64,000 nucleotides of DNA from Campylobacteraceae bacterium (GTDB lineage: Bacteria; Campylobacterota; Campylobacteria; Campylobacterales; Campylobacteraceae), in NCBI GenBank assembly GCA_031268335.1, contig JAIRXG010000007.1, forward strand, positions 1 through 64,000, given 5' to 3'. Below, one piece after another: positions 2,607-45,754 of this stretch (positions are counted from its first letter, which is position 1; each line of letters opens with the position of its first letter). The position numbers and the translations under genes were made by a program. The notes under the pieces were generated by a model. The model was not told where the DNA came from and did no database searches. It was given only the letters and a program-made list of their open reading frames with translations.

Positions 2607-3566
2607 TTAAATCTTTTTTTCTTTGAAAAAACGCGCAAGTTTTGCCTGCGCTTTAAGCCATTCTTTGTGGAGCATTATCGGGAAGCCGCTGTATACTTTA
2701 CCGCCTTCAAGGGTTTTACTAACGCCGCCGCGCGCGGCAACAACCGCAAAATCCCCTACTCGCAAATGTCCAGAAGTAGCGCTCTGTCCACCCATAACAA
2801 CATTTCTGCCAAGTATGGAAGAGCCTGCGAGTCCTGTTTGTGAAACGATAATACAATGTTCGCCCAATTCGCAGTTATGTCCTATTTGTACAAGATTGTC
2901 TATCTTTGTGCCTTTTTTGACGATAGTTGAACCAAAAACCGCTCTATCGATTGTCGTACAAGCTCCTATCTCCACATCGTCTTCCAAAATCACATTTCCA
3001 AGATGATATATCTTTACATGTACGCCCTCTTTTGTGTGCGCATATCCAAAGCCATCGCTACCGATAACACAATTTGCTAACAAATGACATCTCTTACCTA
3101 TGATGCAATTGTTATAAATGACCGCATTGGGATAGATTATTGTGCCCTCTTCTATCGTAACGTTTTCGCCTATATATGCTCCATGCATGATGGTAACATT
3201 TGCTTTGACAATAGCGCCGTTTCCAATATAAACATTTGGCATAACGACAGCGCTTGAGTCAATTTGCGGCGGTTTTGACGTAGAACCAATGACTTTAGAA
3301 GCAAACAGCTCGCTTAAAAGCGCCATATCCAAGTGCGGATTTTGGCTCACGATAATAGAACAGCCTTTTGGAGCAAACTGTTTGTGTTTTTCTAAAACTA
3401 TGGCAGCGCCGGCCTTTGTGTTTTTAAAACTATCCAAAAAGTTTTCATTTTCAAGATATACTATATGTTCGCCTAAAGCGTCTTGTATCGCCTGAAATCC
3501 GCCGATTTCCCTATCTTCTCCCTCATAATCGCGCGAGAGTTTTTTGCAAATATCAGATAATTTCAT
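2607..3566 (-). CDS. lpxD: UDP-3-O-acylglucosamine N-acyltransferase LpxD
   Basis: 319 residues, usual length for LpxD. It transfers a 3-hydroxyacyl chain from acyl-ACP to the 2-amino group of UDP-3-O-acylglucosamine, the third step of lipid A synthesis, in the cytoplasm. The N-terminal 100 residues are the uridine-binding domain; residues about 103-290 are left-handed beta-helix hexapeptide repeats (IG-x-x-V/I-type). The catalytic His is in QIGHN (His230) and the second conserved His in TSGHLRV (His267), in the same relative places as the E. coli enzyme. A helical C-terminus follows. The ATG shares its first base with the last base of the ilvH stop, so translation is coupled. The order ilvI-ilvH-lpxD is familiar from Campylobacterota. 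Confidence 0.97.
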   Translation of the reverse strand: MKLSDICKKLSRDYEGEDREIGGFQAIQDALGEHIVYLENENFLDSFKNTKAGAAIVLEKHKQFAPKGCSIIVSQNPHLDMALLSELFASKVIGSTSKPPQIDSSAVVMPNVYIGNGAIVKANVTIMHGAYIGENVTIEEGTIIYPNAVIYNNCIIGKRCHLLANCVIGSDGFGYAHTKEGVHVKIYHLGNVILEDDVEIGACTTIDRAVFGSTIVKKGTKIDNLVQIGHNCELGEHCIIVSQTGLAGSSILGRNVVMGGQSATSGHLRVGDFAVVAARGGVSKTLEGGKVYSGFPIMLHKEWLKAQAKLARFFKEKKI

Positions 3567-33948: not shown

Positions 33949-34023
33949 TGGGGTGTAGCCAAGCGGTAAGGCAACTGGTTTTGGTCCAGTCATTCGGGGG
34001 TTCGAATCCCTCCTCCCCATCCA
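33949..34023 (+). tRNA. tRNA-Gln (anticodon TTG), CCA encoded
   Basis: Acceptor TGGGGTG (33949-33955) pairs with CTCCCCA (34013-34019); U1-A72 is usual for glutamine tRNA. The anticodon stem ACTGG/CCAGT encloses the loop TTTTGGT with TTG at 33981-33983. The T arm has GGTTCGAATCC. The discriminator is T, followed by CCA. Confidence 0.95.
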
Positions 34024-34031
34024 TAATGTGT

Positions 34032-34093
<62 letters not shown>

Positions 34094-34108
<15 letters not shown>

Positions 34109-34283: not shown

Positions 34284-35485
34284 ATGCCTAAAATTGCAAA
34301 ACCATTAACAGATACTCAAATAAAAAATGCAAAAACAAAAAATAAAAACTACAAGCTATTTGATGGTGGCGGAATGTTTTTGTTGATAAAAATATCAGGC
34401 AAAAAATATTGGCGGCTAAACTACACATATAATGGCAAACAACAAACAATGTCATTGGGAATATACCCTCAAACTTCACTTCAAGAAGCCAGAATAAAAA
34501 GAGACGAGTACAAAAAAATATTATCATTGGGGGATAATCCATCAATACAAAAAAAACGCTCAACTGACATTAAGACGGTAAAACAAGCAGTAATAGAGTG
34601 GTATGAGTTAAATAAAGAAAGATTCAGCGATAGCTATAAAAAGAATATATCCATCTTTATCAATCGCAGAATTATACCATCTATTGGCGAAATGCCAATC
34701 ACAAAAGTAATTGCAGCGGATGTAATAGCCTTTGGTAAAAAATAGAATTGGAAGGACATCTTGAGACTCTATCAAGAACGCTTAACACGCTTGAACGTAT
34801 ATTTAGATATGCCGTGTCTGTTGGATATATAACCCACAATGTAATAACAGACATAGATAAAAAAAGCGCTTTCAAAAGACACAAGCAAAAAAATTATCCT
34901 GTTATTACAGATAAAAAAGGGCTTGGAGAATTATTGAGGACCATAGACGGATACAGTGGAAATGTTATAACTAAATACGCTTTAAAACTGGCTCCGCATC
35001 TATTTGTCCGCCCCGCTAATTTGAGATATGCAGAGTGGATGGAATTTGATTTTGAAAAAAAGATTTGGCGAATTCCAGCTGAAAAAATGAAAATGGAAGA
35101 CCCACATATTACGCCATTATCAAAACAAGTAGTAGAAATATTGCGGGAGTTAAAACAAATATCTGGCAATGGCAAATTTTTATTTCCAGGGCATGTAACA
35201 TCTTCACGCCCGATATCTGATGCGACTTTAGTTAAAGCTCTGCGACGGCTTGACTATTCAAAAGAACAGCTTGTCGCACACTCTTTTCGTGGCATTGCGA
35301 GCACGATACTTCATGAAAATATAAATGCTCACGGCGTTCATACCGAAGCAATAGAACGCCAGCTTGCACATCAAGAGCGAAATAAAGTAAAGGCCGCATA
35401 CAATCATGCTAAGTACTTACAAGAGCGAATATATTTGATGACATGGTGGAGTAACTATCTGGACGACATAAAAGAAAGTGTATAA
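34284..35485 (+). pseudogene. Tyrosine integrase, split by a -1 frameshift in an A6 run
   Basis: Two frames (34284-34745 and 34748-35485) join into one 400-residue P4-type integrase if one A is added to the A6 run at 34737-34742 (GGT AAA AAA ATA GAA). The N-terminal DUF4102 domain (KLFDGGGMFLLI, YNGKQQTMSLGIYP) and the SAM-like core-binding domain are in the first frame. The catalytic half, with Arg in APHLFVRPANLRYAEW, HSFRGIAS (H-x-x-R) and the nucleophile Tyr in KAAYNHAKYLQER, is in the second. Length and motifs are otherwise perfect. The break could be decay, a sequencing error or recoding on the A-run. Confidence 0.88.
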
Positions 35486-35531: not shown

Positions 35532-37149
35532 ATGAGCATTCTAAAAGTAATAAATCCAAATATACAATATCGCCTCCCCGCATTACAACAGCTCAAAGTA
35601 GCAAAACATATATCTCCAAACATTTTTGAAAATAAAACGCCATTATTCCATATTGATCTTTTAACTTTTATCAATGGCGAGGAAAAATATAAGGCAGCAG
35701 CTGTATTCAGGGGCTCCGCAAAAACAACACTCTTAAATAAAGTAAATATATTTTGCAGGGTTTTTTTTGAACATGAGCCACTTACAATAATAACTTCAGA
35801 CAGCAGAGATAAAGCTGAAAGCTTTTTGTCTGACATAAAAGATATGTTTATATCAGCCTCAAATATTGGATATGCAATATCAAAAGGCGCAGTTTGGACA
35901 AAAGAGGAAGTCCATGTAACCGTTAATAAAGATAAAAAAGATGCTGATGGTAAATCGCTTGAAGAGATATGTATCGTGATAAGTATTTCAGTAGGTACAA
36001 GTCCACGAGGATTCCTCAAAAAAAATATGAGACCTACTCTTATTGTATGTGACGAACATGGAGAGCAATCAAGGTCAGTTTGCTGTCGGTAGCGCGTCAA
36101 ACAGAAAAAAAATAGCTAAATTCTTTTATGCAGATCTATTGCCTACACTTCATCCAATACGCGGGCAAGTTGTTATTTTGGGCACAATACTTCATATTGC
36201 AAGTTTACTCGCTAATATAGTTTATGAAAGAGATACAGAAGATGAGGATGAGGAAAAAACAAATATACATCAAGGAGAGTGGGACACAAGAATATACCCA
36301 ATAATAAAAGATGGCAAATCTATGTGGGCGAATAGATTTTCAAATGATTACATACAAAATTTAAAAGAGATGTTTATAAAAAATGGGCTTGAAAATGAAT
36401 TTTATCAAGAATTTATGTGCAAGCCCTTTTCACCTGATAAACAATTTTTCAAGCAAGAACATTTTAATTACTTCAGCAAAATACTTTATAAAGAAATTGT
36501 ACCAATAGTTGTAATGAATGACGCACTGAATCATAACCAGATATCTTGCCCACAGCCTGTCTCTATTGTGCTTGAGAGCAAAACAGTAAACATAAAAGAC
36601 TGTCAGGTATATACAACGATGGATTTGGCAAGTTATGATGGCGCAGATAGAACAGCCATCGTAACTTTTGCATTAGCTCCGGATAATAATATTTATATTC
36701 TTGATATAAGCTGCGGGCATTGGACACCATATGAAAAAGCTGTAAATGCAATTAGAATACAAGTTATGTTTAATCCAATCAAATTTGGTATAGAAAAAGC
36801 TGGTGCATTAAATGATTTCTTTTACACGATGCAAACAGCTCAAGTACAAACAGGAATCAGGGTAAACATTTGCCCGCTTTCACATCACGGCAAAGAAAAG
36901 AATATGAGAATTGCACAGCTGCAACCATATTTTGTAACAGGGCGTATATTTATGAACAAAAAGCAAGCCCAAACTCTTGAGCTTGAAGCCGAACTGTTAT
37001 CATTTAGTATTGACGTGGAAAGCAAGCACGATGATCTAATGGATGCACTTGCTTATATGGTTGAATTCATAGGGAATAAAGATATGAGAGAAACTATAGA
37101 TGATGATTATAGTGGTGAAAATTACACGGAAAGCGACATATTTTTTTGA
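35532..37149 (+). pseudogene. Phage terminase large subunit, split by a +1 frameshift at Walker B
   Basis: Removal of one C at 36057 (GAC GAA C ATG GAG) joins two frames into a 538-residue protein. The ATPase half has the P-loop-like FRGSAKTTL (about residue 60) and the Walker B strand TLIVCDE, which the shift interrupts just before the MESN continuation. The nuclease half shows acidic clusters in MDLASYDGADRT, FGIEKAG and KHDDLMDALAY, as expected for the RNaseH-like domain that cuts packaged DNA. It starts under the hairpin above. Confidence 0.85.
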
Positions 37150-38005
37150 CAGCCTCACAAGCACAAATGTTTTGCGGTATCAACACGTGCATTTTAAAAA
37201 AACAACTATATAAAATTGTTTTTAATATAAGATTGTCGCTCAAACAAAGCAGTTTTTTGAAAAAAAATAAAAAATACAAACAATGGTGATATATAGCTGC
37301 GACATCAAGTGGGTACATACCCCCCCCTAATGTGCTTGAAATACCATATTTGTGGGGAAAAATACGACATAAATGCGACTACAGATATGCCAATAAATGT
37401 GTTTGGGTAAAAAATATATATCCCTTAAAAAATGTTTCACAGTTTTTTGATTTTCCTTTAAAACGCTCCAAGCTTAAGCCTAAACTTAAACATTTTAGCC
37501 TATAACCTTAAAGAATATATCAATCTTAAAAAAAACCGCCCGAAACTTAAAAAAGTGGTAAAAAAATGTTTTGTAAAGTATTCTTTTCAATACAAAAAAC
37601 AGGCTTTCAAACAATCTCATTGTGAAACTTAAAACTATTTTTATATCCAAAAAACGATAATAATGAAGCGAAGCAGCAACTTTGTCCGACAGCCTTCTTT
37701 ACCCCGCCCGTTCGTTTGTTTCTATCAGGTTTTTCTCTTCTTTGTGTTAGCACTTATAGGGAAAGGTAGGAAAATCAAAAACACCACTTGTTGGCGCTTG
37801 CGCGCGTTAATACAATAGGAAATCGGTACGCATTATCGTGCGGCTCGAATCTTTTTTTGTACAAAATAAACTTGTTTATGCCGCACGATGCACAGATTTA
37901 CTCTGATATGAAGAGGTGGTAATATAAGATGGATAATGGCGGAGATGTCAAAAACATGTCCATCTTTAAGCTTGGAGAGGTGCGCTTATGAGTTACTAAA
38001 AACTC
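37150..38005. other. 0.85 kb non-coding core of the phage element with a large palindrome
   Basis: Convergent gene ends flank this stretch. It has a run of 8 C (37320-37327) just after GGGTACATA, locally GC-rich text around 37690-37720, and a 10-bp perfect inverted repeat ATCGTGCGGC (37835-37844) / GCCGCACGAT (37880-37889) whose 35-base centre holds another palindrome, TTTTGTACAAAA. A packaging site or an origin is conceivable; nothing proves it. Confidence 0.5.
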
Positions 38006-40695
38006 TCAAGACTTTTTTATTTTCTCTATTTTAAATTTGTACTCTTGTTTGATTTTATTTTTGAGAATAGTATTATTACCGGCTTTTTTTAACTCTTTTT
38101 GAGTTTCATTTTTAAGCTTATTTATCTTTTTATCTTTCTCTTTTTGCGTGTTAAAGTGCCGCACGCCAAGACCTTGCAAAAATATTTGTGAGTAATCCAT
38201 CTCATCGCCAAACTCATCATTACGCGGATTCAATTTCGTGCTTTTGCTAAAAAGCCTCTGTCCGTATCGTCCGTAAGTGAGAGCGGGCAGATACGCTTGA
38301 GCAGCTTCTATCAGCCTTTTTCCTATATGTTGTATTGCGGTATCATCTTCTTTAGCTATTGGATGTCCGCTAAGAGGATTCTGTCCTTTTGCTATACTTA
38401 GAAATCCGCCCAAAAACCCGCCGCTCCAGTTTGAAAAATCCATATCGCCAAATCGTATGCCGGGTATAAGCCTTCCGCTGTTCCAAAACCATCCCGTATT
38501 CCCAACAGGCGACCAGCTTTTTATGCCAAGCACATTATCTAATATCTTTGATTTTGCCCATTCAGGCTTTTGGTAATTCTCTTTTTCATTGTTACCTCCG
38601 AGCCATGCGCTTGCGCCAAGCCCTGCCATTGCTCCTTGAAGTATCGCGAACCTAACGGGATGCTTCAAAATGGTTTTTAGAACCATAAGCGTTGCTTTGT
38701 ACTGATAGTGCAGAAACGGGACAAGACCGCTTTTATCCAACGCTCTGATTCCTGCCGGCATAGGCGTAGAATAATCTACATAGCTTTTTTGCGCCAGACG
38801 CATTGCGGCAACATCATCAACCCCTTCTCTTGTAAGCCGATAAAAATGTGCAAGCTTAAATATCTTATCGCCCCAGTCGTAAGCGTTACGCAAAAAATTC
38901 CCAGTTTTTGAACCTTTGGCAAAATATGTCTCTTTCAGTATTCTAAGTATAATCGGCTCTTTTTTTTCAGATTCAAACTGTTTTAACCCACCTTCAAGAT
39001 AATCAAGCTGCGAGTTAAAGCCCTGTTTATTTGCTCTTCCCATAAGATTACTCCACGCTTCCCTATTTGTCATTCTAATTTTCATAACTTGATAAAGCGC
39101 TCTCGTATCGCCGTGCAGAAATGACAATAACATATTACTGCCGATATTATATAAATGTGTAGCCGGATTTTTTACGGTTACATTAACCTTTATATGATCT
39201 ATCAAAGCAAGATAGTTTCTGCTAAGTGCACTCATATCTCTTTTGACTATATTTGCGCTCATTAAAGCGTTATAAACCTCTGTCGGCACATATTTACCGC
39301 CAAGCGCGCCGTATTTCTTTATACCGCCGCCAACCGTCTCGTCGCTTACCCTTTCAAATCCCTCTGCCGCTTCGTCCCTGCCAAACCGCTCAGAGATATT
39401 TTTCAGTACATTGGCCTTAAGTATCTGCTCTCTTTGGTCGCGTATGGATTTGCTATTATAAACCCCTCGTCCTCTATCATTCCGAGCGCTATACGCTCGC
39501 TATGGTCTAAATCTTTTCTCTTAAAATTTTTCTTTTGTCCAAGCCCGCTCTGCCTTAAAAATTCAGCCGCTTCCTCAGCCTGCGCTTTATAATAACGTTT
39601 TAGATAATTTTCCATAGCGAATTCGGGTTTTAACGCACCAGCATCAATAAGAGCTTTTGTATTATCATTCGATATTTTTCTTAGACTGTTATAAATTCCT
39701 TGCAAGTGTTCAGGCAAAACCTTAAGATCCGCATCGCCTCCAAGCGCTCTAACAAGAGAGGCAATATCCTCTTTGCCAAGATTTTTATCTAAAAAATTTT
39801 TTACATCCGAAGCCGCTTTGACAATCTGTATCTGTCCGTTCCTAAAGTCTTGTGCCATAGCCGCAACCTCTTTTGTTTTATGATCAACAAAAGCAATAAA
39901 ACGCGCTGATTTACCAAGCGCCCTTGCAAGAGAATTCTCGCTGTCTATTCCCTTTTGTATTAATTCGTCTATTTTTGAAGCGGCGCTATCCAACTTATTA
40001 TCTACTTGACGCGCCCAACGACTTTGTGGTATAATATTGTTAGAGCGAGGGGTCGTTTCGGACGTGAAGCGAGCAGTAGCTGAAGCTGATGTTCGCACCT
40101 CGCTATTTTTTATATCTATCCATTTTATATCTTGCTTATCAAATGTTTTTACTTCAGGCGTGCTAAGTTTGTTTTTATACATACTTATTGGGACTAACTC
40201 TTTTCTGCCTGTCCTAACGACTTCAACGACATAATATGTATTATCAAGTTTCTTTTGAAACATTATAGTTTCTCTATTGTCGCGTGTTTTTGTTTTTGCT
40301 ATTTTGTCGGGATGAAATATTATTTCGCCATAATGCAGCATATCTTCGCCTGTTATAGGTCTGGCATCATTTGAGCTTATTCCGTGTCGTTTTTCTATAT
40401 GTCTTAGCTCGTCGGCAGAAAGCTTGAAACTAAACCCATTTATATCAATATCCAAAAATTCTTTGAACAATGAAGCTTCAATCTCACTAACAGCGTCGAT
40501 ATCAATTTTTGTCTGCTTTTTGCTTGTATCGCTTATTGCCGCTTCAAAAAAATCTTTCATTTTTTTACCAACGCCGGCAACAAAATCTTTATCTCTTACA
40601 AATTCGTTGTTTAATTCAAAGCCTCCGCTATCATTTACATTTTCAAGCAACTCTTTTTGTTTTTTAAGTCCTTCTTTGTTTTTGCAAGGTTCCAT
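38006..40695 (-). pseudogene. Phage polyvalent-type protein: nuclease-like N-part and LPD38-like C-part, frameshifted
   Basis: The ATG at 40695 shares its A with the upstream TGA and has a perfect AGGAGG site, so translation is coupled. Two frames join into 896 residues if one base is added to the four-C run at 39463-39466. Residues about 60-160 (ELRHIEKRHGISSNDARPIT, then GEIIFHPDKIA and YYVVEVVRTGRKELVPISMY) look like the phage Barnase-EndoU-ColicinE5-RelE-like nuclease modules (PBECR). The C-terminal 430 residues (VTVKNPATHLYNIGSNMLLS) resemble the LPD38 domain of phage large polyvalent proteins, with hydrophobic stretches. Assignments are by recollection of family patterns. Confidence 0.65.
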
Positions 40696-43600
40696 CAGCA
40701 AAGCCTCCTGTCTAATTCGTTTACTACTTTCCCGTCTTGCACATAATTATCTTCAAATTCTTGCAGTTTTTTACGCGCTGTTTCAATTTTCGCGCTATTA
40801 TCATAAATAGGCGAAGCGTTTCCATCTTTTAAGGCGACATCAATATTCTTTTTTAATATATTGAAGCGTTTATTTGCATCTTTCCCATAAAGCCACTCTT
40901 TATTTTTTATTATTGCATCGTTGTAGCTTTTAACGCCAAAATTATTAATTATATATCCTGTTTTAATGTCAATTACATCACCTTTTGCATATCCCAACTC
41001 AAACTCGCCAATCGTCATCTTTTTCCCTTTTATAGCTACAAACGAAGGATAGACGGTAAACTCTGAGGAAACATCAGAGGGAATATAACGTTTATAAAAC
41101 CACCCGTTTTGTCCGTTTTCTACCTGCAAAAGAGTTTTTTCTCCGTCGGGTATTGCCTCTTTTATATCAACTTTTCCCGTTGTTTTATGTTTTATAGCGG
41201 CATCTATATAATCTTTGCGAGCATCGTATATAGCTTTATAAATGTCATAACTTGGTTTATAATCTCCTTCCTCAAAAACAGGCTCTTTCTCATTTTTTAT
41301 ATAGTTATAGTATTTGGCAAAATTACCATCTTCTTTTTTAAGTTCTTCTATTATTTCCTCGCGGCGAGATTTGGTTATTTTGCCATTTTCTGTAAACAAG
41401 AGTTCATTTTTTAGCGTGGTATATTCATCTTCAAGCTCTATATTGCGCCTTTTGGCAGGATCGGCTTCGGCTATAGCTCTTGGATTTATATCATTTGTAA
41501 CGCTTTGTTCCCCGTAGAGTTCGTCGCGCCATCCCTTATTCTCCGTCTCTACTCTTGCAAGCTTCTCTTTTGTTGTTTTTATGTCTGTTTTCACTTTTTC
41601 AAAGAGCTCTTTAGCTTCCGCTCCTATAAGAGCTTCTTTTTCTCTATAAATATTGCGCATCTCTTCTCTAAGTTCATTAGACTTCACGGCGCGGTTATAT
41701 TGCGTTAATTTTTCAAAATCAGGATTATCTTGCAGCCATTTCTCTATGATACTTTTTTCTTCGTTTGTAAATTTAATACCTTTTTTACCGTTTAAGTATA
41801 AATTGTACTTACCAATTACTTCATTGATTTTCCCTGCTTCTTCAAGTTTAACTTCAAGCAAAGAGAGTTTTTCTTCTAAAGATGCGTCGGCTATCGTCAG
41901 TTCTTCAGGCGCGAGCTTATTGTCTGCATCTTCTGCGCGTACCACAGTGTTTGATTTATCCCCTGAAACGACAAACTCATCACCTCCAGCGGATTCGGAT
42001 TTTGCCACTCCTTCATCGCCTGCGGATACCCCGCGAATCTCGCCGTCAGGTACAGTATCCTGTCCAAGTCCCTGTAAGGTTCCTGCATCATCTGCTTCGC
42101 TTGAAGCACGAGAGAGGATAGATTCGCCCTCAATGCTTTCTCCCCCTCTATTATCAAGGTTATAAGCTCCTGCCTCTGCGCTTGATTCAGTTTCTCTTCT
42201 ATAAACAGTTTCATCTCCTGTATACTTTTCATCTGCTTCTCCTTTATTTTGTGATATAATATTTTCGTTGGAAGGCGGTTGACTAACTGGGTCCTGCTTT
42301 CCAACATTTTTATCCGAATACATTGTCATTACTTTTTTACTGTCCGCATTTTCAAATACAGCTACTCTATATCTAATCCCCTCTTTAGTTGACTCATAAG
42401 CATAGCTTTTTTGTCCGTTTTCAGATACTCTTACCAAATCTTCAGGCATCTCGCCTTTTCGTATTATCTCACCCATGTTTAAAAGTTCTTCAGGCGTTAA
42501 TTCGCCGTATTTACCTTCGCCGATATGTTTTTGTAAAATATGAATTGCCCCGCTGTCTCTATTACCCCTCCCATATCTAATTACATCAAAGAGGTCATCC
42601 ATTTTTATATCTACTGCGTTTTTACCGTTGAATGTCACATTCCAAATTCCACGCTTCTCTTTCTGCCGCGTTTTTTCATCAACTGTTTTTTTTACGCGCG
42701 CGGTCACTTCGTTAGTAGCTTTTCCCGCAACTTTTTCATTAAAGTACTGCTTTGCAATGTTTATATCTTTTTGGGCGTAAGCTTTGGTAAATACGGAGAT
42801 TTGTTCATCTCCAAATCCATACGATTTAAGCTTTGCGGTGAACTCCTCAGGCGAGTAAACAGGATTTGCAATGCTTTGTTCAAGGCGTGTGAGTATTTTA
42901 GTTCCTGCAACCTGCGCATTTACGCCAGCTCCGTCATTTAACAGTTCCGATATTTTAAGCATTTCAGCAGAAGGTTTATTGTTCACGGCAACCATATCGT
43001 TTATTGTGTTTTGACTAAGGGACGGGTTGTTTGTTCTAAGAGTGTTTTGCAGCTCAACGTCTTTTGCATAAGCATTTATGCTTTGCTCTTTTGCAGTCTC
43101 TATCTGTTTTTGCATTTTTACAAGCTCTTCGCCAAACAGGCTAAACTCGTCGCTTCGCTTTGACATTTCATACATACTTTTTATATATGCGTCAAACTCC
43201 TTTATATCGTTATATTTTTCCTGATCTATGATGCTTGCCGCTTTACCTTCCCTAACATCGTTCAAGACTTGCGCTTTAGTCTCCAAGGGCGCATCTTTTA
43301 AAATATTTGCAATAAATACATTAGTATCCCACTCCTTAAGCCGCGCCGCCGCTTCGTCTTTAAGTCCAAGCTCTTTTAACACATTATCAAGCATTGTTTT
43401 ATCGTTATCGGCAGCAGGGGATAGAGTTTCTGTTTTAGCGGCAGGAGGCGGATTATTGGATTTGGTTTTATATTTTTCATAAAGCTTCCCAACTCCATGC
43501 AAAACTTCTCCAAACGCCGCAGAAGCCACAGCGCCCATAGCAGCGCTTTTCATTATTTCGTCGTTATCGCGGTCCATCACGGCAGCAGTCCCGCCCGCTC

Positions 43601-44210
43601 CTATAGCTCCGCCAACGGCATTCAACAGTACTCTTTTTATGATGGATCCCGAACCGCTTCCGATAAGCGACGTAGGATCCGCGCTTGCGCCGCCTATCAT
43701 TTGCGCAATTATGCTTAGTATGGATTGACTCTTCCCCGTTCTGTATTCGTGGTCGCTAAATGCTCTCTCCCAATTTTTTGCCTGCTGCTTGGCATACTTT
43801 GTGCCTTCACTTATTTTAGCAGGGATTATTTGCGAGGGGATATTGTCTATTATATTGACTCCGCCGATATTCGTGTTTGGCATAGTTTTCTTATCGTCTA
43901 TGCTGGGACCGTGCGCCTCTTTCCATTTTATCCATTCGGGGTTTTCTATTGTGCCGTACATTGCCTCGTCAACCAAAGTATTGGTAAATGCAGATGATTC
44001 CCACCAGCCGTATTTAAACCCCTCCGCCACATCTCCGTCATCAAGCGCTCTGACGTAACCCTCGTGATCAGCGGCAAGCGGATTTTTTTTGTATTCATAA
44101 GCTTTTTTTATCTCTCTTTTAATCTCATCATCGCTAAGCCCTTTTTCGCGCAGACCGGAGAGTATGCCCCTGCCGCCCAAATCATTTAGCATATGTTCAT
44201 AAGTTTCCAC
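40695..44210 (-). CDS. Giant phage protein (1171 aa), polyvalent/internal-virion type with nuclease-like module
   Basis: GTG start with an AAAGG site. Residues about 195-235 are a glycine/alanine-rich hydrophobic segment (AVGGAIGAGGTAAVMD) suited to a membrane-active ejection protein. Residues about 540-635 (YGRGNRDSGAIHILQKHIGE, ELTPEELLNMGEIIRKGEMP) resemble the barnase/colicin E5-like module (DUF3519/PBECR) of Helicobacter and Campylobacter phages. A low-complexity acidic linker (about 640-770) and long charged coiled coils follow, and a second such motif region near 1060-1110 is possible. It is followed by a coupled second gene. Likely delivered with phage DNA; this is inference. Confidence 0.6.
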   Translation of the reverse strand: METYEHMLNDLGGRGILSGLREKGLSDDEIKREIKKAYEYKKNPLAADHEGYVRALDDGDVAEGFKYGWWESSAFTNTLVDEAMYGTIENPEWIKWKEAHGPSIDDKKTMPNTNIGGVNIIDNIPSQIIPAKISEGTKYAKQQAKNWERAFSDHEYRTGKSQSILSIIAQMIGGASADPTSLIGSGSGSIIKRVLLNAVGGAIGAGGTAAVMDRDNDEIMKSAAMGAVASAAFGEVLHGVGKLYEKYKTKSNNPPPAAKTETLSPAADNDKTMLDNVLKELGLKDEAAARLKEWDTNVFIANILKDAPLETKAQVLNDVREGKAASIIDQEKYNDIKEFDAYIKSMYEMSKRSDEFSLFGEELVKMQKQIETAKEQSINAYAKDVELQNTLRTNNPSLSQNTINDMVAVNNKPSAEMLKISELLNDGAGVNAQVAGTKILTRLEQSIANPVYSPEEFTAKLKSYGFGDEQISVFTKAYAQKDINIAKQYFNEKVAGKATNEVTARVKKTVDEKTRQKEKRGIWNVTFNGKNAVDIKMDDLFDVIRYGRGNRDSGAIHILQKHIGEGKYGELTPEELLNMGEIIRKGEMPEDLVRVSENGQKSYAYESTKEGIRYRVAVFENADSKKVMTMYSDKNVGKQDPVSQPPSNENIISQNKGEADEKYTGDETVYRRETESSAEAGAYNLDNRGGESIEGESILSRASSEADDAGTLQGLGQDTVPDGEIRGVSAGDEGVAKSESAGGDEFVVSGDKSNTVVRAEDADNKLAPEELTIADASLEEKLSLLEVKLEEAGKINEVIGKYNLYLNGKKGIKFTNEEKSIIEKWLQDNPDFEKLTQYNRAVKSNELREEMRNIYREKEALIGAEAKELFEKVKTDIKTTKEKLARVETENKGWRDELYGEQSVTNDINPRAIAEADPAKRRNIELEDEYTTLKNELLFTENGKITKSRREEIIEELKKEDGNFAKYYNYIKNEKEPVFEEGDYKPSYDIYKAIYDARKDYIDAAIKHKTTGKVDIKEAIPDGEKTLLQVENGQNGWFYKRYIPSDVSSEFTVYPSFVAIKGKKMTIGEFELGYAKGDVIDIKTGYIINNFGVKSYNDAIIKNKEWLYGKDANKRFNILKKNIDVALKDGNASPIYDNSAKIETARKKLQEFEDNYVQDGKVVNELDRRLC

Positions 44211-44237
44211 GTTTTACCTTTATCAAATGCTATTTTT

Positions 44238-45245
44238 TTAATCAAACCAGTTAAGAGGGTTCCACTTAGATCCTTGCGGTTGGTTTGACTTAAAAAGACC
44301 GCTGCCCGCTTTATCAACTCTTTGTTCTATAACATTATTGTTATTTAAAATGCTCTCCTCATTAACATCTAAAAGTTCAAAAAGATACGGATTAATAAAA
44401 TAATTTCCGTCATTCTCGCTAAAACCGTCTATAGCATCATCCTTGCTATATCTATACTTTTCAATTACCGCTTTCCTCATTTCATCGTATACATTTTTCC
44501 CGACTTGTATACCGGATGCAAGTCCGCTCGGACCGCCGAAAACTACATTAGTTCCTGTTACTTTCCCATTTTTTATATGTACCACTCCATAACCTCCGCC
44601 GTCAAGCTTTACAACCTTATCTACTGTTTTCGGATCGTTATCATTAATAAAATTAAAGTTTTTTCTGTAAAACCACAGCTCCTCGTCGCTTAAATCTTTA
44701 AGCTCAGGATACTTCGCTTTCATCATTTTTGCATTGTATTGCAACTGGCTATCCGCAGGAATACCATCAAGTTTTGCAGTTATTTCATTTAAGCTCGCCT
44801 GCATCGTATCGTTGCGCGCTTTTGTCTTTGCGCTATCGGCTTCGGATTTTTTGATTGTATTTTCAAGCTCTGCATTTGAAGTTAAAAACGGTTCTACTCC
44901 CTTGTTCCACGTTTCAGACTGTATATCATTTTCAAGTTCCACGCTTGCTGCTGAAGCTTTTTTTTGTTTGTTTTCAGCTTCTGCATTTGAAGCGTAGTAA
45001 GGAGAGCTGGCATCATAGAGCGTTTTGCTGTTTTGGGTATTTAACTTACTGTTTTCGGCAAGAGCATTATTATAATTAGCCTGCGCATCGCTTGAACGGC
45101 TCAAACGTTCAAACTCTTGTCTCCACCTTTCGTTTTCTTCTTCTTTATCGTTCCACTTTATAAACTCGCCTCCCGCAACCAATAAACAAACTCCACCAAG
45201 TAACATCACGTAACAAAACCCCGCTAAAAAGCCACTTTGAAACAC
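44238..45245 (-). CDS. Phage-element protein whose 5' end crosses attR
   Basis: Up to 335 residues. Most is hydrophilic coiled coil with an Ala/Asn/Glu-rich centre (about 55-170) and a C-terminal part ending NPLNWFD. The only start codons (GTG 45245, GTG 45209, ATG 45206) lie in or beyond the right attachment repeat. The segment MLLGGVCLLVAGGEF encoded there forms a membrane-anchor-like N-terminus. In the attL copy the same frame is closed by TGA. So the gene is either 5'-truncated by the element's end or has gained a host-derived start. I recognise no family. Confidence 0.6.
   Translation of the reverse strand: MFQSGFLAGFCYVMLLGGVCLLVAGGEFIKWNDKEEENERWRQEFERLSRSSDAQANYNNALAENSKLNTQNSKTLYDASSPYYASNAEAENKQKKASAASVELENDIQSETWNKGVEPFLTSNAELENTIKKSEADSAKTKARNDTMQASLNEITAKLDGIPADSQLQYNAKMMKAKYPELKDLSDEELWFYRKNFNFINDNDPKTVDKVVKLDGGGYGVVHIKNGKVTGTNVVFGGPSGLASGIQVGKNVYDEMRKAVIEKYRYSKDDAIDGFSENDGNYFINPYLFELLDVNEESILNNNNVIEQRVDKAGSGLFKSNQPQGSKWNPLNWFD
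45167..45228. repeat. attR, right attachment site (62-bp direct repeat)
   Basis: Second copy of the repeat beginning CGCCTCCCGCAACCAATAA, differing from attL at three positions. It repeats the last 15 bases of tRNA-fMet including CCA. The right part should be the original downstream flank of the tRNA gene. Confidence 0.88.
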
Positions 45246-45754
45246 TTTTTACATATTTTAATACAGGGATATATAACGCCAAATAACAAAAAGTATGTAT
45301 GACATTAGATTGGTCGACAACAAATAAAAACAAATACTATATCATTTATTTAAACACTGACAAGATAGACAAGTTATTTACATTATTGAATACTATGGCG
45401 AAAGCTATTTTGTTTGATTTTTGAAATAATATTTTTTGATTACACTGTTGATGCATAGGCTAAAGAAATACGATTATTATGAAGTTTGTAACTATTTTGA
45501 TAATTTTTATTTTTTTAGTGAAAGTGCAAAATAAAACTATCTTAAGATAGAAAAAGCTATTGTAATTTTGGCGTTTCATTAAAAAACAGTTTTACAATGC
45601 ACAAAAGATTTAAAGCAAAAATAGCTTTAGTGCAATTTGAGTTATTAGCAAGCATGAAATTAAATTTTAGACAAAACACAAATGACATTTATTGCAAAAA
45701 AGAAACCTCAAAAGCTTGTAGAAGATTGAATGTTTTTCCGCCTATTTACTTGTC
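45246..45754. other. Intergenic, former downstream flank of tRNA-fMet
   Basis: About 500 AT-rich bases between attR and cca. I see no open frame with a ribosome site and no RNA gene. Confidence 0.5.

Follow-up and report, generated by a model that had tools for sequence, protein, structure and literature searches.

The window analysed here, a stretch of 64,000 nucleotides from a Campylobacteraceae bacterium (positions 1 to 64,000 of contig JAIRXG010000007.1, assembly GCA_031268335.1), carries on its minus strand an uninterrupted frame of 1171 codons with a GTG start and no internal stop, which is listed with its parts and neighbours in Table 1. This frame had been claimed in a preliminary description of the same DNA, and it is real. 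A further minus-strand ORF of 136 codons (41897-42307), in another frame, overlaps the linker behind the nuclease-type module discussed below and bears no sign of being a gene. The 432-aa and 427-aa ORFs that follow the 1171-aa gene correspond to one single ORF of 700-915 aa in intact relatives. Virion RNA polymerases of the N4 type are matched weakly by the 427-aa part, in their C-terminal region (positions 3253-3360 of 3406 in phrog_2206); the likeness to these systems ends there, no N4-type polymerase domain having been found in the locus. The phage integrase and the large terminase subunit are each split; intact relatives encode the terminase in a single, convergently oriented ORF of ~520 aa. 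The tRNA-Gln/tRNA-Met site beside the integrase is the likely integration site of the prophage; no att direct repeat of at least 12 bases was found at the locus. The host assembly is a draft in 31 contigs, 85% complete. The splits of integrase, terminase and the 432/427 protein, compared with the single terminase and 432/427 ORFs of relatives, thus indicate a prophage remnant or, in part, an artefact of the draft assembly, and the locus is read as the decayed prophage of a bacterium of Campylobacteraceae type, in which some of the splits could be sequencing errors. This broken prophage, the clear PBECR3 module in the next gene and the promoter-like seams treated below had all been overlooked in the preliminary description.

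Table 1. Features of the prophage locus (coordinates of the window)
Feature	Position	Strand	Basis
Predicted polyvalent protein gene, 1171 aa	40695..44210	-	ORF listing, homologues
Conserved scaffold, residues ~140-515	42666..43793	-	phrog_13543, homologues in intact prophages
Gly/Ala-rich, moderately hydrophobic segment, residues 160-250	43461..43733	-	Composition, Kyte-Doolittle
PBECR/DUF3519-type predicted RNase module, residues 509-644	42279..42686	-	Family alignment, model, His/Ser
H562 codon	42525-42527	-	Putative active-site His of module
S632 codon	42315-42317	-	Putative active-site Ser of module
Seam IISQ, candidate antisense extended -10 pointing into module, TTGTGATATAAT on +	42249..42260	+	DNA motif
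Second seam (IIPQ on - at 40024-40035), antisense to PBECR3	40006..40035	+	TTGACG-18-TATAAT with TG
432-aa ORF, overlapping the 1171-aa gene by a few bases	39403..40701	-	PBECR3 module
PBECR3 module, residues 71-179 of 432-aa ORF	~40165-40491	-	Pfam PBECR3, 1.8e-19
427-aa ORF, other frame than 432-aa ORF	38006..39289	-	phrog_2206, 7.5e-7
335-aa ORF upstream of 1171-aa gene, no informative family match	44238..45245	-	Pfam, PHROGs
Phage integrase, split (34284-34745 + 34748-35485)	34284..35485	+	phrog_1, PRK09692
Terminase large subunit, split (35532-36092 + 36043-37149)	35532..37149	+	phrog_38
tRNA-Gln and tRNA-Met beside integrase	33949..34108	+	tRNA calls

Early on it was suggested that the 1171-aa protein contains a DUF3519/PBECR-type nuclease module of the kind embedded in phage polyvalent proteins, on the strength of the pattern IHILQKHIGE...MGEIIRKGEM. 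Both halves of the pattern are present, starting at residues 556 and 579 and spanning residues 556-588, and the module proper extends from residue 509 to 644, its N-terminal start lying ~20 residues ahead of the limits 530-640 proposed at the time. Matches to residues ~490-660 occur in genomes from within the genus and the family (best 3e-109) and in Helicobacter phages (best 7e-13 to 1e-13), so that the module is not a product of chance; the relatives comprise, by name, Campylobacteraceae MAGs, Campylobacter concisus, Sulfurovum and Helicobacter. A scan of viral contigs with the whole 1171-aa protein gave no match, and with the module as query it gave 8 loci. Compared directly with Pfam, NCBIfam and PHROGs, the 1171-aa protein yielded no informative domain apart from phrog_13543 over the scaffold, and none of the Pfam and NCBIfam models exceeded its cut-off for the module: DUF3519 (PF12033) reached 13.2 bits, below the cut-off of 27.5, and covered only the C-terminal part, and the PBECR profiles gave no significant match to the window sequence. 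It is the family, compiled as an alignment of 58 non-redundant and diverse sequences, that carries the assignment. DUF3519 is matched by 11 of the 58 members (best 2.4e-12), a few members match PBECR1 or PBECR3 weakly, and the family profile aligned with that of the PBECR3 family of the neighbouring gene at a probability of 86 and an E value of 5.1e-6 (hhalign, profile-profile). Furthermore, H562 is kept in 57 of the 58 members, as is S632 (57/58); the PBECR signature described by Iyer et al. (2017, PMC5512222) consists of an active-site His in a helix and a Ser/Thr in the C-terminal strand. The assignment of residues 509-644 as a PBECR/DUF3519-type module common to Helicobacter phage proteins is thus supported. 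Profile searches of the PDB returned, besides a weak match to CdiA, nothing but EF-hand-like chance matches.

The AlphaFold model of residues 509-644, based on the 58-sequence alignment, is composed of helices and strands (pLDDT 93.4, pTM 0.86); it replaced a first prediction from 19 sequences, which had reached a pLDDT of 48 and was dropped. In the model an N-terminal helix is accompanied by five strands; H562 lies at the end of helix 554-561 and S632 at the end of the last strand. Two strands precede the His helix, so that the order is only roughly that of the PBECR core, an N-terminal helix followed by 4-5 strands. In BFVD the best matches (probability 1.00, TM ~0.62) were polyvalent phage proteins that bear the name ART or nuclease, the match lying somewhere within these multidomain proteins. 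A fold search of the PDB with the model gave nothing at an E value of 0.001 or better; the highest-ranking matches listed were NTF2-like or designed proteins (TM ~0.3), and no RNase was among the 50 listed. The check named in the preliminary description, a profile or structural match to an RNase fold, is thus passed in part: the module stands through its family, the conserved His and Ser, the BFVD matches and the swapping described below, not through the window sequence itself, which lies below every Pfam cut-off, nor through the PDB matches listed.

The module is preceded by a conserved scaffold, residues ~140-515, of which residues 310-513 match phrog_13543 (2.8e-27). Its homologues occur in intact prophages, where the rest of the protein varies, and the scaffold is probably a virion or delivery part. 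Within it falls the segment that had been taken for a membrane-active Gly/Ala stretch. The composition is as described (31% G+A in residues ~160-250), but the hydrophobicity is moderate, with best 19-residue Kyte-Doolittle means of 1.55 and 1.28 and no clear transmembrane helix; a membrane role is possible for such a segment. In syntenic proteins the same N-terminal scaffold is combined with PBECR2 (6.6e-6, just below the PBECR2 cut-off; L073), with ART-PolyVal (8.3e-24) and LPD23 (7.8e-21; L071), or with SNF2/helicase (L074). The protein therefore has the characteristics of polyvalent proteins, which are large, multidomain, equipped with exchangeable effector domains and borne by phages or conjugative elements. 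Along these lines, conjugative plasmids of Campylobacter and Helicobacter carry relatives of the module, located under or beside genes annotated as virB11 (plasmid matches H57, H60-H65, H67-H70), in agreement with the T4SS mobile elements reported in PMC5512222. Several relatives contain at least two PBECR-type modules per protein (L062:8831-15250, L057:9002-13186, L110). In a prophage of H. cetorum (L032:6782-14244) the same module occurs in two successive proteins of 1390 and 946 aa, an arrangement that suggests duplication.

Family, predicted fold, conserved residues, swapping and genomic context point, with a probability of about 0.75, to a polyvalent phage protein, encoded in a decayed prophage, with a swappable PBECR/DUF3519-type predicted RNase that would be delivered with the phage DNA; from the same features we infer RNase activity, packaging, injection and target. 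Judging from family and context (PMC5512222), the protein would be made late and then packaged, and it would enter a new host together with the phage DNA, with the scaffold handling packaging or passage. In the new host, the module would cut RNA in a metal-independent manner by the chemistry of H562 and S632, candidate targets being host, rival or CRISPR RNA. The chances are about even that the gene is by now a relic whose protein is without function, whatever the intact relatives do. The splits of integrase, terminase and the 432/427 protein, the latter two whole in relatives, speak for such a state, as does the finding that no capsid, portal or tail gene was recognised beside the 1171-aa gene; the 1171-codon frame itself is intact, however, and in a draft assembly some of the splits could be sequencing errors. 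A relic is compatible with the identification of the gene as that of a polyvalent protein. It is unlikely, on the other hand, that the module merely has a BECR-like shape and serves, inactive, as an RNA- or protein-binding virion part, as proposed for the C-terminal domain of Mu MuF. An inactive PBECR has been described in MuF (PMC5512222), and the lack of a solved RNase among the PDB matches listed would be in line with it, but H562 and S632 are each retained in 57 of 58 diverse members, which would be unusual if the enzyme were dead. A DNA segregation or partition protein, after the annotated DUF3519 proteins of H. pylori prophages (one such prophage gene is called chromosome segregation protein, PMC11321410), is highly improbable, as no ParB or SMC match is present here whereas the module bears the PBECR signature, and the segregation label may concern other parts of the mosaic protein.

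Another feature close to the predicted RNase is a short joint, or seam: NIISQ follows directly behind the module at residue 651, and NIIPQ behind PBECR3 in the 432-aa ORF. Many polyvalent proteins of Campylobacterota contain the same joint, with as many as five copies per protein (L053), behind PBECR1, PBECR2, PBECR3, DUF3519-type and LPD3 modules. It lies at most 240 bases downstream of 18 of 78 modules; on the upstream side the count is 5 of 79, and among random windows the share is 4.6%. The joint is thus enriched behind modules yet far from universal. The codons of IIPQ/IISQ are near-fixed as ATT-ATA-NCA, which corresponds on the opposite strand to TGNTATAAT, the sigma-70 consensus of Campylobacterota; the reverse complement of the seam reads TTGTGNTATAAT. 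Among 121 polyvalent-type ORFs, ATT-ATA is used in 35 of 37 seams versus 43 of 229 (18.8%) other Ile-Ile pairs (binomial P 1.7e-23, a value that ignores remaining relatedness), and the seam Pro is encoded by CCA in 27 of 30 cases and never by CCT, though CCT accounts for 36.7% of Pro codons in these ORFs. After flank clustering, ATT-ATA persists in 40 of 55 candidate peptides, a set that also covers unrelated proteins; where it does, Pro is encoded by CCA in 28 of 30 cases. The reading frame is kept: in the initial set of loci, 34 of the 35 exact 12-mer occurrences are in frame. Residue 3 varies among P, S and A, since the N of TGN stays free under NCA; both the replacement of P by S or A and that of Q by K leave TGNTATAAT unchanged, and the variation falls mostly at positions where a promoter tolerates change. 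The last strand (IITFYSDRN) of many relatives' modules likewise uses ATT-ATA-ACA, which reads TGTTATAAT on the opposite strand, or ATT-ATA-ACC.

The sequence TGxTATAAT is the sigma-70 consensus for ~89% of 8,019 C. jejuni starts (PMC3656092), and this extended -10 is present at both seams of the window. Within 38000-45300 no site matches a promoter better than the seam at 40006-40035 (11/12, with TG); the seam at 42249-42260 has the extended -10, with no -35 listed. Three copies of ATTATAYCACAA occur in the genome of the window, two at the seams and one between genes, shortly upstream of a ribosome-binding site and ATG, and several intergenic occurrences in relatives resemble promoters as well. 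Over all seams, -35 matches amount to 3.0 versus 2.54 in matched controls (P 0.003 after clustering), a modest excess. A purine at +7 after the -10 was considered as a start-site signal and rejected, other wobble positions showing equal bias. The 12-mer is also contained in every repeat (GTTGCAAATTATACCACAATCCAACTTGGTTTGAAAC) of a CRISPR array (L147, G005:C1 from ~262656), the opposite strand of each repeat carrying TTGTGGTATAAT. C. jejuni CRISPR repeats each carry a promoter (PMC3656092), which explains the 12-mer in the repeat better than cleavage of the seam sequence in CRISPR RNA by PBECR, and the latter idea was abandoned.

From these motifs it is proposed, tentatively and at somewhat less than even odds, that the seams may be antisense sigma-70 promoters directed back through the nuclease modules. 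In a lysogen, a seam promoter would drive antisense RNA through the nuclease module and so silence the toxin; encoded in frame as IIPQ, IISQ or IIPK, it would move with the module during swaps and so constitute a portable, module-by-module type I-like antitoxin. That the IIPQ seams are instead peptide-level sites of processing or joints left by recombination between modules has evenly balanced odds. The constant frame (34 of 35 exact DNA occurrences), the position in polar linkers and the extensive mosaicism (PMC5512222) favour this reading; the codons, however, are fixed beyond the need of a peptide (ATT-ATA 35/37 against 18.8%, CCT unused against 36.7%), and the exchanges at P and Q while TGNTATAAT persists argue against it. 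For the antisense promoters a parallel exists in H. pylori, where the asRNAs HPnc5970 and HPnc6000 are listed against HP1116 (PMC8322730), and one relative from Helicobacter carries the annotation of an HP1116/jhp1044-like mosaic protein; an in-frame seam was looked for in H. pylori phage KHP40 and H. cetorum and was absent, so that the HP1116 antisense RNAs are an analogy, not proof. KHP40 ORF11, annotated as DUF3519 (PF12033) and 35.8% identical to window residues 491-636, is without the IIPQ seam, unlike the window proteins. In the type I toxin-antitoxin system AapA/IsoA of H. pylori (PMC8322730), antisense RNA silences the toxin as it would in the seam proposal; the window differs in having a promoter motif alone, inside a large phage gene and known from DNA sequence only.

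Among known systems the closest are the PBECR domains that Iyer et al. (2017, PMC5512222) describe in polyvalent proteins, H. pylori jhp1044 among them; they belong to the same module family with His and a C-terminal Ser and share the mosaic architecture and the occurrence in (pro)phages and T4SS elements. In contrast to these, the window member lies below the Pfam cut-offs and sits on a different scaffold, and the available portion of that paper was found to contain no mention of seams. A backward promoter-like motif behind PBECR-type modules is new in so far as no published description was found. The protein widens the known PBECR polyvalent family by a lineage of Campylobacteraceae and by a distinct scaffold. 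If the seams are indeed promoters, phages and plasmids could carry and exchange nuclease modules safely without a separate antitoxin.
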